Source: Bifidobacterium criceti (GTDB lineage Bacteria > Actinomycetota > Actinomycetes > Actinomycetales > Bifidobacteriaceae). Taken from it: a DNA stretch of 64,000 bases. Under the pieces are notes generated by a model, which made no database searches, was not told the origin of the DNA, and saw only the letters and a list, made by a program, of their open reading frames with translations. The stretch spans positions 1 to 64,000 of the forward strand of contig NZ_MVOH01000014.1 in NCBI RefSeq assembly GCF_002286935.1, read 5' to 3'. Below, piece by piece: positions 23,857 through 28,501 of this stretch. How positions within the stretch are numbered: position 1 is the first letter of the stretch; each line of letters begins with the position of its first letter. The position numbers were made by a program, and so were the translations under genes.

Positions 23857-25020
23857 TCAGGCGTCGCGCAGCGTTTCGAGGAACCCCTCGATGCGCGCGC
23901 ACGCCTCTTTGATCTGTTCCATGCTCGTCGCATAGGAGATGCGCACGAAACCTTCGCCGGACTCGCCGAATGCGGTGCCCGGCACGACCGCGACCTTCTG
24001 TTCCTCGAGGAGGCGTACACAGAATTCATCCGACATCAGTCCCGACGATGTGATGTTCGCGAAGACATAGAAGGTGCCTTTCGGAACGTTCGTCGTCAAT
24101 CCCATCCGGTTGAGCCGCGCGCAGATGAGGTTGCGGCGCGCCTCGTATTCGCCGCGCATCGCTGCGATGTCCGGCATGCCGTGTTCGAGCGCCTCGATCG
24201 CCGCGTATTGCGCGGAGGTGGGCGCCGACATGATGACGAACTGGTGCACTTTCGTCAGCTGCGCGCTCAACTCCGGATTGGCGAGCAGGTAGCCGAGGCG
24301 CCAACCGGTCATCGCGAACGCCTTCGAGAACCCGTTGATGACGAGCACCTGGTCACGGATCTCGTCGAAATGCGCGGGAGAGCAGAACTCCCCGTCGAAC
24401 ACGAGTTCCGAATAGATCTCGTCGGATATGACGTAGATGCCGGATGCTTTGAGGATCGGCACGAGGCGCGCGTAGTCCTCACGGGTCATCACACCGCCCG
24501 TCGGGTTCGACGGGAAGTTGACGATGACGGCTTTCGTCCGCTCGGTGATCGCCTGTTCGAGGTCTTCGGGGAGCAGTTTGAAATCGTGTGCCTGCGTGAG
24601 CGGGATGCGCACGGGTACACCGCCCGCCATCAGGATCGCTGGTTCATAGGCGACGTAGTTCGGGTCGAGCACGATGACCTCATCCCCCGGTTCGATGATC
24701 GTGCGGCAGCACAGGTCGACCGCCTCCGATCCGCCGACTGTCACGAGGATCTCGGATTCGGGGTCGTAATCGATGCCGTAGCGGTTGCGGTAGTAGTTCG
24801 CGATCTGCCGGCGCAATGCGATCAGGCCGCGGTTCGCCGTGTAGTGTGTGTGCCCTTCCGCGAAGGATTCGACGGCCTTCGCGCTGATGTGCCAGGGCGT
24901 GTCGAAATCCGGTTCGCCGACGCCGAGCGAGATGACGCCTTCCATCGCGTTCGCGAGGTCGAAGTATTTGCGGATGCCGCTCGGCTTGAGCCGTTCGATT
25001 GTGCTGTTGATCGGTTTCAT
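23857..25020 (-). CDS. Pyridoxal-phosphate aminotransferase (class I/II)
   Basis: A 387-residue fold-type I aminotransferase. NFPSNPTGGVM carries the cofactor-contacting Asn-Pro, VISDEIYSEL the Asp, and INGFSKAFAMTGWRLGYL the Schiff-base Lys and an Arg. It resembles the aromatic/aspartate aminotransferases of the PatA/AspC type. The start at MKPINSTIE (25020) is chosen because its A is shared with the TGA of the Lrp gene upstream, so translation is probably coupled. The Lrp-type regulator is therefore likely to respond to an amino acid this enzyme makes or degrades. The exact substrate cannot be told. Confidence 0.9.
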   Translation of the reverse strand: MKPINSTIERLKPSGIRKYFDLANAMEGVISLGVGEPDFDTPWHISAKAVESFAEGHTHYTANRGLIALRRQIANYYRNRYGIDYDPESEILVTVGGSEAVDLCCRTIIEPGDEVIVLDPNYVAYEPAILMAGGVPVRIPLTQAHDFKLLPEDLEQAITERTKAVIVNFPSNPTGGVMTREDYARLVPILKASGIYVISDEIYSELVFDGEFCSPAHFDEIRDQVLVINGFSKAFAMTGWRLGYLLANPELSAQLTKVHQFVIMSAPTSAQYAAIEALEHGMPDIAAMRGEYEARRNLICARLNRMGLTTNVPKGTFYVFANITSSGLMSDEFCVRLLEEQKVAVVPGTAFGESGEGFVRISYATSMEQIKEACARIEGFLETLRDA

Positions 25021-25538
25021 CAGTAGCTCACCACCAATCGCCCTTCGCCCGGCGTCGTGCGCCCGGCGCCTGTGAGCACTCCGGATTGCTTGTATTGTTT
25101 GAGCACGAACAGTGTCTTCGTGCTTTGCACGTTCTCCATGACGGCGATGCGGTCGGCGACGAACTGGCACACTTCGAACATCGTCCTGCCCTGTACAAGG
25201 CATATGAAGTCGTTGTCTCCGGTGATCAGGTACAGCGAATCGATCTCCGGGTATTTCGCGAGCAACGCCGCGGTGTGGTCGTAGCCTTTGTCCTTCATCG
25301 GCGAGACGTCGACTTCGATGAACGCCATGATGCGTTCGTCGCGCAGCACTTTGTTGTAATTGATGACCGTATGGTATCCGCAGATGATTCGCTCGTCCTC
25401 CATGCGCCGCACGGCGTCACGCACGGCGTCCGCGTCCTCGTTGAGGATGTCCGCGAGGTCCTGCGCGTTGAGCCGTGCGTCGTTCTCGAGCAGTTCGAGG
25501 ATCGATTGGTCGCGTCCGCTGATGTTCGGTTCCGTCAT
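25020..25538 (-). CDS. Lrp/AsnC-family transcriptional regulator
   Basis: A 172-residue regulator with an N-terminal HTH (QSILELLENDARLNAQDLADIL, then RRMEDERIICGY) and a C-terminal RAM/AsnC ligand-binding domain (DNDFICLVQGRTMFEVCQFV). I chose the ATG at 25538 with ACAGG upstream; a GTG two codons earlier is also possible. The gene overlaps the aminotransferase gene at 25020 by one base, so the two are an operon and the ligand is probably an amino acid related to that enzyme. A second aminotransferase follows downstream on the same strand. Confidence 0.9.
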   Translation of the reverse strand: MTEPNISGRDQSILELLENDARLNAQDLADILNEDADAVRDAVRRMEDERIICGYHTVINYNKVLRDERIMAFIEVDVSPMKDKGYDHTAALLAKYPEIDSLYLITGDNDFICLVQGRTMFEVCQFVADRIAVMENVQSTKTLFVLKQYKQSGVLTGAGRTTPGEGRLVVSY

Positions 25539-25580
25539 ATCCACCTGTCCTTCGCTGTCCCGTGCATCGTCATCGTGGTG

Positions 25581-27455
25581 TCACTGTCGATAGTAGCCGA
25601 AGAAGTCCGTCATTTTCTCGACGGCGCCTTTGAGCACTTCGACGCGCGGCAGGTAGACGACGCGGAAATGGTCGGGGTCCTTCCAATTGAAGCCGGTGCC
25701 TTGCACGATGAGCAGTTTCTCGTCGTGCAGCAGGTCGAGCGCGAACTGTTCGTCGTCGTGGATGTTGAATTTCCTCACGTCGATCTTCGGGAAGATGTAG
25801 AACGCGGCCTTCGGTTTGACGGCGGTGATGCCGTCGATCGAGTTGAGCGCCTCGTAGATGTATTCGCGCTGCTCGTAGAGGCGGCCGCCGGGAACAAGGT
25901 AGTCGTTGACGCTCTGGTGTCCGCCGAGTGCCGTCTGCACGATCGACTGCGCCGGTACATTCGAGCAGATGCGCATGTTCGTGAGCATGTCGATGCCTTC
26001 GATATAGTCCTTCGCGATCGCCTTGTTGCCCGACAGGACCATCCATCCGATGCGGTATCCGGCGATCATATGCGATTTCGACAGGCCGCTGTAGGTGACG
26101 CAGAACAGGTCGGGCGCGAGCGACGCGATCGACGTGTGCTCGAGGCCGTCCATGACGAGACGGTCGTAGATTTCGTCGGAGAAGATCATCAGCTGGTGTT
26201 CGCGCGCGAGGTCGACGATCTGTTCGAGGACTTCCTTCGGATAGAGCGCGCCCGTTGGATTGTTCGGGTTGATGATGACGATTGCCTTCGTGCGATCGGT
26301 GATCTTCGCGCGCATGTCGTCGATGTCCGGATACCATTCCGACTGTTCGTCGCAGATGTAGTGCACCGGTTTGCCGCCGGCGAGTGTGACACATGCGGTC
26401 CACAACGGGTAGTCGGGCGCCGGGAGAAGCACTTCGTCGCCGTTGTCGAGCAGCGCGCTCATGCTCAGGTTGATCAGTTCGCTCACGCCGTTGCCGGTGT
26501 ACACGTCCTCGACGCCGACGTTCGGCAGATGCTTGAGCTGCGCGTACTGCATGATCGCCTTGCGCGCCGAGAACAGGCCCTTCGATGCCGAGTAGCCTTC
26601 CGTGTCGGTGAGCTGCTGCGCCATGTCGTAGACGACTTCGTCGGGTGTACGGAAACCGAACGGTGCCGGATTGCCGATGTTGAGCTTCATGACGTGCATG
26701 CCCGCCGCCTCCATGCGCGCGGCCTCGTTGACGACTGGTCCGCGTACATCGTAGAGGACGTTGTCGAGCTTATGCGATTTTGTGAACGTCCTGCGTGAAC
26801 GGACGGTCGGCTGTCCTTCCGTCACACTCGACGGCACGTCGGTGAACGACGGGTCCTGTACGCTGTTGTCGAATTGCGGTTCCATGACGTGCTCCTGTCC
26901 TGTGGATGGCTGCTGCGGATGATGACGGTCTGTCGCGGACGATTGTTGTGCAATCGTCGAAGAATGTTCAATATTGGCCGCGACTGCATTGTTGTTCAAT
27001 GTTGATGGCGTCGCATGTTCCGCATCACTATGCTCAATATTGATGTGTTCAATGCCCTGTTGTTCAACATTATGGTCATTAGTTTGTTCAATATAGTATG
27101 CACTATTACGTTCAATGTTGTGTTCAACCCCGCGTGCACGAGTATGTTCAACGTTCCTTTGCGCCATATGGATGGAATCGTTTCGTGCGGCAATCTTCTG
27201 CACATCGTCGAAGGTCGCCGGACACTCGTCGAACGGCACGCGCTCCCCTGCGAGCCACCGTGCGTCGACGCGGAGCACGGCGGCGAGGAAGCATTCGATC
27301 TCCGGACGTGGTTTCGTCTTCCCGTTGACGTATTGGCTCACATGGCTGCGTCCGAGCTTGACGCCGTGTTCTTCGGCCGCTTTGACGAAATCGCTCTGCC
27401 GTATGTTGCGCAGGTCCATCGCCTGGTTGAGGCGTTGCGTGAAGAGATCGGCCAA
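25581..27455 (-). CDS. XRE-type HTH domain fused to alanine-type aminotransferase
   Basis: A protein of about 624 residues with three parts. Residues about 1-70 are an XRE-like HTH (IRQSDFVKAAEEHGVKLGRS, then HVSQYVNGKTKPRPEIE). Residues about 85-225 are a low-complexity linker with repeated (I/V)EH units (VEHNIER, GIEHINIEH, NIEHSS). The rest is a class I/II aminotransferase of the AlaT type, with INPNNPTGALYPKE, FSDEIYDRL, the Schiff-base Lys in SGLSKSHMIAGYRIG, and FRVVYLPR. I used a TTG start at 27455, six bases after GGACGGGAG; the open frame continues to a GTG at 27527. Such a fusion suggests a metabolic enzyme that also controls transcription. The linker DNA and upstream region carry a dense repeat that could be its own operator. 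Confidence 0.88.
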   Translation of the reverse strand: MADLFTQRLNQAMDLRNIRQSDFVKAAEEHGVKLGRSHVSQYVNGKTKPRPEIECFLAAVLRVDARWLAGERVPFDECPATFDDVQKIAARNDSIHMAQRNVEHTRARGVEHNIERNSAYYIEQTNDHNVEQQGIEHINIEHSDAEHATPSTLNNNAVAANIEHSSTIAQQSSATDRHHPQQPSTGQEHVMEPQFDNSVQDPSFTDVPSSVTEGQPTVRSRRTFTKSHKLDNVLYDVRGPVVNEAARMEAAGMHVMKLNIGNPAPFGFRTPDEVVYDMAQQLTDTEGYSASKGLFSARKAIMQYAQLKHLPNVGVEDVYTGNGVSELINLSMSALLDNGDEVLLPAPDYPLWTACVTLAGGKPVHYICDEQSEWYPDIDDMRAKITDRTKAIVIINPNNPTGALYPKEVLEQIVDLAREHQLMIFSDEIYDRLVMDGLEHTSIASLAPDLFCVTYSGLSKSHMIAGYRIGWMVLSGNKAIAKDYIEGIDMLTNMRICSNVPAQSIVQTALGGHQSVNDYLVPGGRLYEQREYIYEALNSIDGITAVKPKAAFYIFPKIDVRKFNIHDDEQFALDLLHDEKLLIVQGTGFNWKDPDHFRVVYLPRVEVLKGAVEKMTDFFGYYRQ

Positions 27456-27690
27456 GTCCAGCTCCCGTCCTCGGATGTTCAAAACAACAACTGGGAACCA
27501 GTCTACCACGCGTTGAACACAACACACAGAACATTGAACATTATCGACGATATGATGCCGTTAGCGACGACATACGCAATCGCAGCTCAAGCATTGTTCA
27601 AAGTTTACATCTGATTCCTGATTGTTCAATATGAATACTGTATATTCAACGACACTCGTCTATGTTCAATTTACAACAATTTCTGTTCAA
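26965..27690. repeat. Array of 17 TGTTCAA-type motifs in linker, promoter and preceding gene
   Basis: Exact TGTTCAA begins at 26965, 26993, 27046, 27061, 27085, 27121, 27145, 27476, 27595, 27623, 27663 and 27684; its complement TTGAACA begins at 27513 and 27534. One-mismatch copies begin at 27031, 27109 and 27643. Flanks favour (A/T)TGTTCAA(T/C)(A/G)TT. About 0.1 exact copy would be expected by chance in this length. The HTH-coding part (about 27180-27455) has none. Nine copies lie in the coding linker, six between the fusion gene and the HAD gene, and two at the end of the HAD gene. Confidence 0.9.
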
Positions 27691-28501
27691 TCCATTGGGC
27701 GACGCCATCGTCGTTGTTCGACGGGCAGACTTCGTCCGCTATTTTGAGTACGTCGGGATTCGCGTTCGCGACGGCGACACCGGTACCGCTTATCCGCATC
27801 ATGTCGATGTCGACGATGTCATCGCCGAACGCCGTGACATCGGACAGGTCGGCGCCCCACCGTCCGCACAATGTCCGTGTCGCCTGTTCCTTGTTCGCGT
27901 CGGGTGCCATGAGCATCCAGAGGCGTCCTTCCGAGACGTGCACGTCGAAATCATCAGGGATGAGCGCCGCGAGCGACTTCGTCTGGTCAGGGCGCGGGAA
28001 CGCGATGATCTTGTCGGCGGTCCCCTCGGGTACGTCGCGGAAATCGGTGTAGGTCCACGTCTGCGTCGTCCAGTATTTCGATACGTCGAACGTCGTGTAC
28101 CGCACGTCGTCCATGACGATGCCGATCTCAAGGTCGGGGATGACATTGAGGATCGCACGGCAGACGTCGCATGCGCGCGACGAGGTGAAGCCGACCTTGA
28201 GCAACGTGTCCGCACGCGGCGGCTTCCTGCCAGTGAGCATCTCGATGTCGGAATGCGCGGGGTCGAAATCGATGAGCGCCCCGTTCAAATAGATGCACGC
28301 ATCGGCGCGCAGACGGCGTACGATGTCATGTCCGGTGCTCACGGGACGTGCCGTCGCGACGGCGAACGGGATGCCCTCGTTGTGCAGACGGTCGACGGCG
28401 CGCTGGGTGCGCATCGTGAAGTCACGGTCCTCGAAGCGCGCGGCGTCATGCAGCAATGTGCCGTCAAGGTCGACGATGACGATCGGTGTTGTGGAAGGCA
28501 C
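27671..28501 (-). CDS. HAD-superfamily (Cof-type) phosphatase
   Basis: A 276-residue hydrolase of the Cof/IIB subgroup of HAD phosphatases. Motif I is IVIVDLDGTLLHD at the N terminus with the nucleophilic Asp, motif II is in FAVATARPVS, and motif IV is VTAFGDDIVDIDMM. Such enzymes dephosphorylate sugar phosphates or FMN-like cofactors. The start is a GTG at 28501, five bases after GGAG; the longer upstream frame has no homology. It lies upstream of the HTH-aminotransferase on the same strand, about 215 bases away. Its last codons and stop region already contain the TGTTCAA-type repeat. Confidence 0.88.
   Translation of the reverse strand: MPSTTPIVIVDLDGTLLHDAARFEDRDFTMRTQRAVDRLHNEGIPFAVATARPVSTGHDIVRRLRADACIYLNGALIDFDPAHSDIEMLTGRKPPRADTLLKVGFTSSRACDVCRAILNVIPDLEIGIVMDDVRYTTFDVSKYWTTQTWTYTDFRDVPEGTADKIIAFPRPDQTKSLAALIPDDFDVHVSEGRLWMLMAPDANKEQATRTLCGRWGADLSDVTAFGDDIVDIDMMRISGTGVAVANANPDVLKIADEVCPSNNDDGVAQWIEQKLL

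Follow-up and report, generated by a model that had tools for sequence, protein, structure and literature searches.

Half-site operators of the class considered here, and the type of repressor that recognizes them, are already known. The CI repressor of phage TP901-1 has an operator, OL (AGTTCATGAAACGTGAACT), that is made of AGTTCA half-sites (PMC4941734), and it resembles the fusion protein described below in this half-site core (PMC4941734, PMC7250872), in the flexible linker that joins its helix-turn-helix (HTH) to an oligomerising domain, and in the placement of one operator (OD) within a gene, mor. It differs in serving a phage lysogeny switch through paired inverted half-sites, and in having a C-terminal oligomerisation domain instead of an enzyme. 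SinR of Bacillus subtilis likewise has an XRE-type HTH, and at its target promoters the 7-bp word GTTCTYT recurs, with copy number and orientation differing from one promoter to another (PMC3163267). The core of these words is different, however, and SinR controls a biofilm regulon and is devoid of an enzyme domain. We know of no intragenic self-array for SinR. Metabolic enzymes may also act on their own genes, as does Escherichia coli PutA, which has a DNA-binding domain and uses several operators to repress the gene that encodes it, although its domain is of the ribbon-helix-helix type and both its enzyme and its operators are others. Finally, the MocR/PdxR regulators resemble the fusion in that a DNA-binding domain is joined to a fold-type-I aminotransferase-like domain (PMC5320631); in MocR the DNA-binding part is a winged helix of the GntR type and the aminotransferase-like part is sensory, whereas the fusion combines a CI-type HTH with an enzyme part near AlaA in which the catalytic lysine is kept. 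In the open-licence literature searched, an HTH-AlaA fusion with an operator array, an intragenic array of this kind and the corresponding natural specificity change are undescribed. The initial annotation of this DNA knew of no described system like it, which holds for the fusion system in the papers searched but goes too far for half-site arrays, these being known for the repressor class from TP901-1 CI and SinR.

The window, by which we mean the whole 64,000-nucleotide stretch of Bifidobacterium criceti DNA that was analysed, encodes on its reverse strand (25581..27455) an XRE-HTH/AlaA fusion of 624 residues, as defined from the open reading frame, Pfam and the match to AlaA. The frame is open as far as 27527, and the likely start is the TTG at 27455-27453, since orthologues begin with MTDRF in the alignment and a GGGAGC lies upstream. 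The protein matches the Pfam models Aminotran_1_2 and HTH_3, as well as HTH_31 and HTH_26, and does not match the GntR model, on which ground membership of MocR/PdxR was rejected. A SinR-like repressor was rejected as well, given that the fusion operator is [A/T]GTTCAAT and not GTTCTYT and that the C-terminal part is AlaA and not a multimerisation domain. The CI-type HTH domain (residues 1-75; 27231..27455, reverse strand) was delimited from the TP901-1 CI match and the pLDDT, and the N-terminal domain of TP901-1 CI is its closest PDB relative (E 2e-7 with the single sequence, 5e-18 with a profile). AlphaFold predicts a five-helix fold with high pLDDT (helices 2-15, 20-29, 36-43, 51-61 and 65-68), in which the recognition helix is present, with values of 82-97 over residues 1-100. 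The linker that follows (residues 101-221; 26793..27155, reverse strand) appears disordered, with a pLDDT of about 30 over residues 106-221, and its coding DNA hosts the intragenic array. Confidence is lower in the enzyme part, for which we take a shallow alignment to be the cause. By sequence this part is an AlaA glutamate-pyruvate aminotransferase with predicted activity: E. coli AlaA (4cvq) is the top fold match, over the full length, with 60% identity and E 1e-170, and the PLP lysine, K460 in SGLSKS, is invariant in the 42 sequences compared. The fusion gene is followed directly, on its own strand, by an Lrp/AsnC-like gene (25020-25544) and then by another aminotransferase gene, of class I/II (about 23857-25026); these possibly form an amino-acid operon together with the fusion gene.

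The window contains 20 exact TGTTCAA words on its two strands, against a mean of 4.9 and a maximum of 11 in shuffles, and 14 of these fall between 26965 and 27690, where the shuffle density predicts about 0.06. The word count thus recovers the 14 exact and three near copies reported earlier for these roughly 730 bases, and the excess stands, although the chance expectation is nearer 0.06 than the 0.1 then given. Inspection of the sequence itself gave the near copies, each of which has one mismatch. The nine copies attributed to the linker in fact comprise seven exact ones (26965..26971, 26993..26999, 27046..27052, 27061..27067, 27085..27091, 27121..27127 and 27145..27151) and two near ones (TGCTCAA at 27031..27037 and CGTTCAA at 27109..27115), all on the forward strand; translation bears out that the word at 26993 lies in another frame and reads Leu-Asn-Asn. 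The HTH-coding DNA is free of the word, as had been noted, with no occurrence in 27152-27475. Between the HTH and the stop codon of the neighbouring HAD gene there are five exact copies and one near copy: the forward-strand word at 27476..27482 sits in the 5' leader, immediately before the ribosome-binding site, two words on the reverse strand (27513..27519 and 27534..27540) lie 21 bp apart, and forward-strand words at 27595..27601 and 27623..27629 are followed by the near copy TATTCAA at 27643..27649 (forward strand). Two copies had been placed in the end of the HAD gene; the one at 27684..27690 is indeed inside its 3' end, but that at 27663..27669 is just beyond the stop codon (both forward strand). 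Tandem Repeats Finder reported no tandem repeats in 26800-27800, and tandem duplication as the source of the array was rejected, there being no match in the window.

The array is not peculiar to the window. The fusion was found in most Bifidobacterium genomes and in other genera of Bifidobacteriaceae, and outside this family in Coriobacteriia, Lachnospiraceae and some other Clostridia bins, and we compiled a sample of 161 distinct loci from Bifidobacteriaceae, Coriobacteriia and Lachnospiraceae. Six genomes of the same genus (G082, G086, G087, G090, G091 and G103) have no match to the HTH and give a best match to the whole fusion of only E ~1e-41 to 1e-44; judged from these matches, the fusion is absent from them or has been lost. 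All 161 loci have GTTCAA within 400 bp upstream, with a median of five per locus, and the pooled count of 795, against a mean of 44 and a maximum of 59 in dinucleotide shuffles, is like the spacing statistics below drawn from related species and so not from independent cases. At fusion loci the extended consensus approximates A[A/T]GTTCAAT[x]T. AlaA loci without an HTH show no such excess (five GTTCAA against 6.3 expected in 29 loci, chiefly from streptococci, lactococci and Clostridia), which indicates that the array tracks the HTH and not the enzyme.

Spacings between upstream words of the same orientation peak at 11, 21, 31 and 41-44 bp, and among seven periods tried the best fit is 10.5 bp (R 0.36, 389 upstream pairs), a strength that is overstated because the pairs come from related species. 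A block conserved in six sequences of the window's clade, TGTTCAACGyrTGsTAkACT, places one operator word next to TGnTAkACT, which is plausibly an extended -10 element; in the window this candidate reads TGGTAGACT (27500..27508, reverse strand), with the word at 27513 directly upstream of it, and in B. pseudolongum it reads TGGTATACT. A consensus scan of the window locus returned no full sigma-70 promoter, and the promoter position is thus taken from the conserved block.

A further property of the linker array emerges when the protein is held fixed. With the linker of the window recoded by synonymous codons, 0.19 GTTCAA are expected on average and eight are present (P 0.0005), and all 13 loci with at least four linker sites exceed this null expectation (P at most 0.002), mixed frames and orientations occurring among them. 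The linkers of B. choerinum and B. italicum have 11 GTTCAA each, those of B. pseudolongum four to five and that of L007 six, and the excess is also seen in relatives of the Lys36 type (L009, L017, L050, L055, L056 and L071; see below). The comparison of homologous loci that the initial annotation had proposed shows that the words persist while the amino acids of the linker drift: in B. pseudolongum alone the word encodes IEH, MFN, SLN, VQQ and FEQ, its copies occupying several frames and both orientations. On the tree, a clade of 13 genomes that includes the window has an apparent single gain of linker sites, with a loss in B. canis, and L071 has apparently gained them separately, its five linker copies following one another at intervals of exactly 12 bp. 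From the codon null and these comparisons, the linker words are under selection at the DNA level, beyond what protein and codon usage account for.

The residue that is predicted to read the first base of the word varies along with that base. Residue 36, the first of the predicted recognition helix (36-43), is an arginine encoded in the window at 27348..27350 (reverse strand) and was assigned from the alignment and the AlphaFold model; it aligns with Lys40 of TP901-1 CI and, by extension of the gapless helix alignment, corresponds to Gln28 of the 434 repressor. It is lysine in 152 of the 161 fusions and arginine in nine. The base before upstream GTTCAA is A at 509, G at 129, T at 71 and C at 23 of the 732 sites of Lys loci, whereas at Arg loci it is T at 51 sites, A at 11 and G at one; accordingly, T is the single commonest first base at all nine Arg loci and at none of the 141 Lys loci with at least three sites. 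On a tree built from the enzyme part alone, the residue and the T majority each change twice and in the same lineages, namely L180, which belongs to another genus, and the eight-genome clade of the window, although two events are by themselves insufficient for significance and that of L180 is thin, with T at two of its three upstream sites and an uncertain position on the tree. In the Arg clade the flanking preferences are alike at linker and upstream sites. In the lineage of the window the docking word and the residue predicted to read it changed together. B. canis (L008), the first branch of this clade, has Arg36, no linker sites and operators that begin with T in six cases and with A in five, and from these sequences it seems to represent an intermediate stage in the change of specificity. 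L071 (G065) has a Lys36 protein and an array composed mostly of GGTTCAA (11 of 13), in which a third kind of first base predominates.

A comparable change is known from the laboratory. Wharton and Ptashne reportedly found in 1987 that replacing Gln28 of the 434 repressor by Ala shifts the preference at base 1 from A to T. The equivalent residue of the recognition helix is changed in both systems, and in both the outer base of the operator goes from A to T along with it; however, the 434 case is a laboratory substitution acting on one operator, while that of the fusion is a natural Lys to Arg change and involves a whole array. In the 933W repressor, mutation of Ser41, the first residue of the recognition helix, showed that this residue sets the preference at the matching outer base (PMC3317979). 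If the change from Lys36 to Arg is what it seems, it represents a natural counterpart of the classical altered-specificity experiments.

Taken with the drift of the linker protein and the core shared with TP901-1 CI, this covariation supports the earlier proposal that selection acts on the words as DNA and that they are operators of the HTH encoded by the same gene. We consider it very probable that they are half-sites bound by the HTH of the encoded fusion, which would then repress its own gene. AlaA-type enzymes are dimers, so that each molecule would carry two tethered HTHs, and such a pair could bind half-sites two at a time over a wide range of spacings and orientations. With sites over the putative promoter and on the same helix face, the fusion protein would repress its own transcription once it has accumulated sufficiently, or under a permissive state of its substrate or cofactor; regulation could also be activation and not repression. 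Because the enzyme is probably abundant, single half-sites would have to be weak and specificity would come from the avidity of the array; for the same reason, titration by some 15 extra sites is unlikely as its purpose. These considerations suggest that common gut bacteria from two phyla possess a central enzyme of nitrogen metabolism in a self-regulating form, the operator code of which would be readable from sequence.

The role of the linker words is less clear-cut. We see a slightly less than even chance that they constitute a selected regulatory element, the linker being writable space for sites of the protein's own HTH, and that regulator and more than 12 sites switched specificity together when Lys36 became Arg. 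In the window's clade they would probably add avidity, or serve as a downstream roadblock or loop partner, at a position where the protein sequence varies freely. Alternatively, the upstream array alone may matter, the linker words being tolerated by-products (of drift or duplication, or weak decoys) without measurable regulatory effect. In agreement with this, in most fusions the sites, four to five in number, are all upstream, B. canis manages without linker sites, and the linker spacings of 12, 15 and 18 bp are codon steps that lack the helical phasing of the upstream sites. Passive copies would nevertheless be expected to decay, whereas linker sites extend across the whole clade and arose again in L071, they share the A to T change and similar flanks with the upstream sites, and the excess over the synonymous null is strong at all 13 loci with four or more of them; we thus regard the by-product explanation as rather unlikely. 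If linker words are instead a selected element, they offer a case of disordered protein regions hosting regulatory DNA, and the Arg36 clade a natural case of a transcription factor and its many binding sites changing specificity together.

Other explanations concern the word itself. Most linker copies of the window encode Ile/Val-Glu-His, so that the words might have followed from selection for an (I/V)EH repeat in the protein, but words also occur outside the gene, and the five peptides, several frames and both strands of B. pseudolongum, together with a synonymous null of 0.19 and not eight, make this hardly credible; as a source of the whole array the repeat was rejected. That the words act in the transcript as UUGAACA, for instance as sites for an RNA or an RNA-binding protein, would suit the several copies in the window that lie in one orientation across the 5' leader and the coding sequence. 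Most loci, however, have words in both orientations, these are equally common upstream of the likely promoter, and their spacing tracks the DNA helix, all of which renders such a role very improbable. Somewhat less remote, though still improbable, is binding by another regulator, for example one common to several genes: TGTTCAA occurs 250 times in the whole genome against 105 for the reversed word, and other functions are possible for these copies. Against it, the word varies with the fusion's own recognition helix, is not enriched at AlaA genes that lack the HTH, and has its clusters concentrated at the fusion locus. In fact, close pairs (within about 40 bp) in the source genome are found at this locus and as two isolated opposed pairs elsewhere, and across the eight Arg-clade genomes they again lie mainly at the fusion locus, with few isolated pairs elsewhere; a wider regulon in the clade was rejected on this concentration. 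Genomes of the Lys36 type also have a few clusters of TTGAACY away from alaA (G044:C4:52163-52207, G074:C1:2387379-2387439 and G026:C30:1426-1480), which may be additional targets or else belong to CI-like repressors of prophages.
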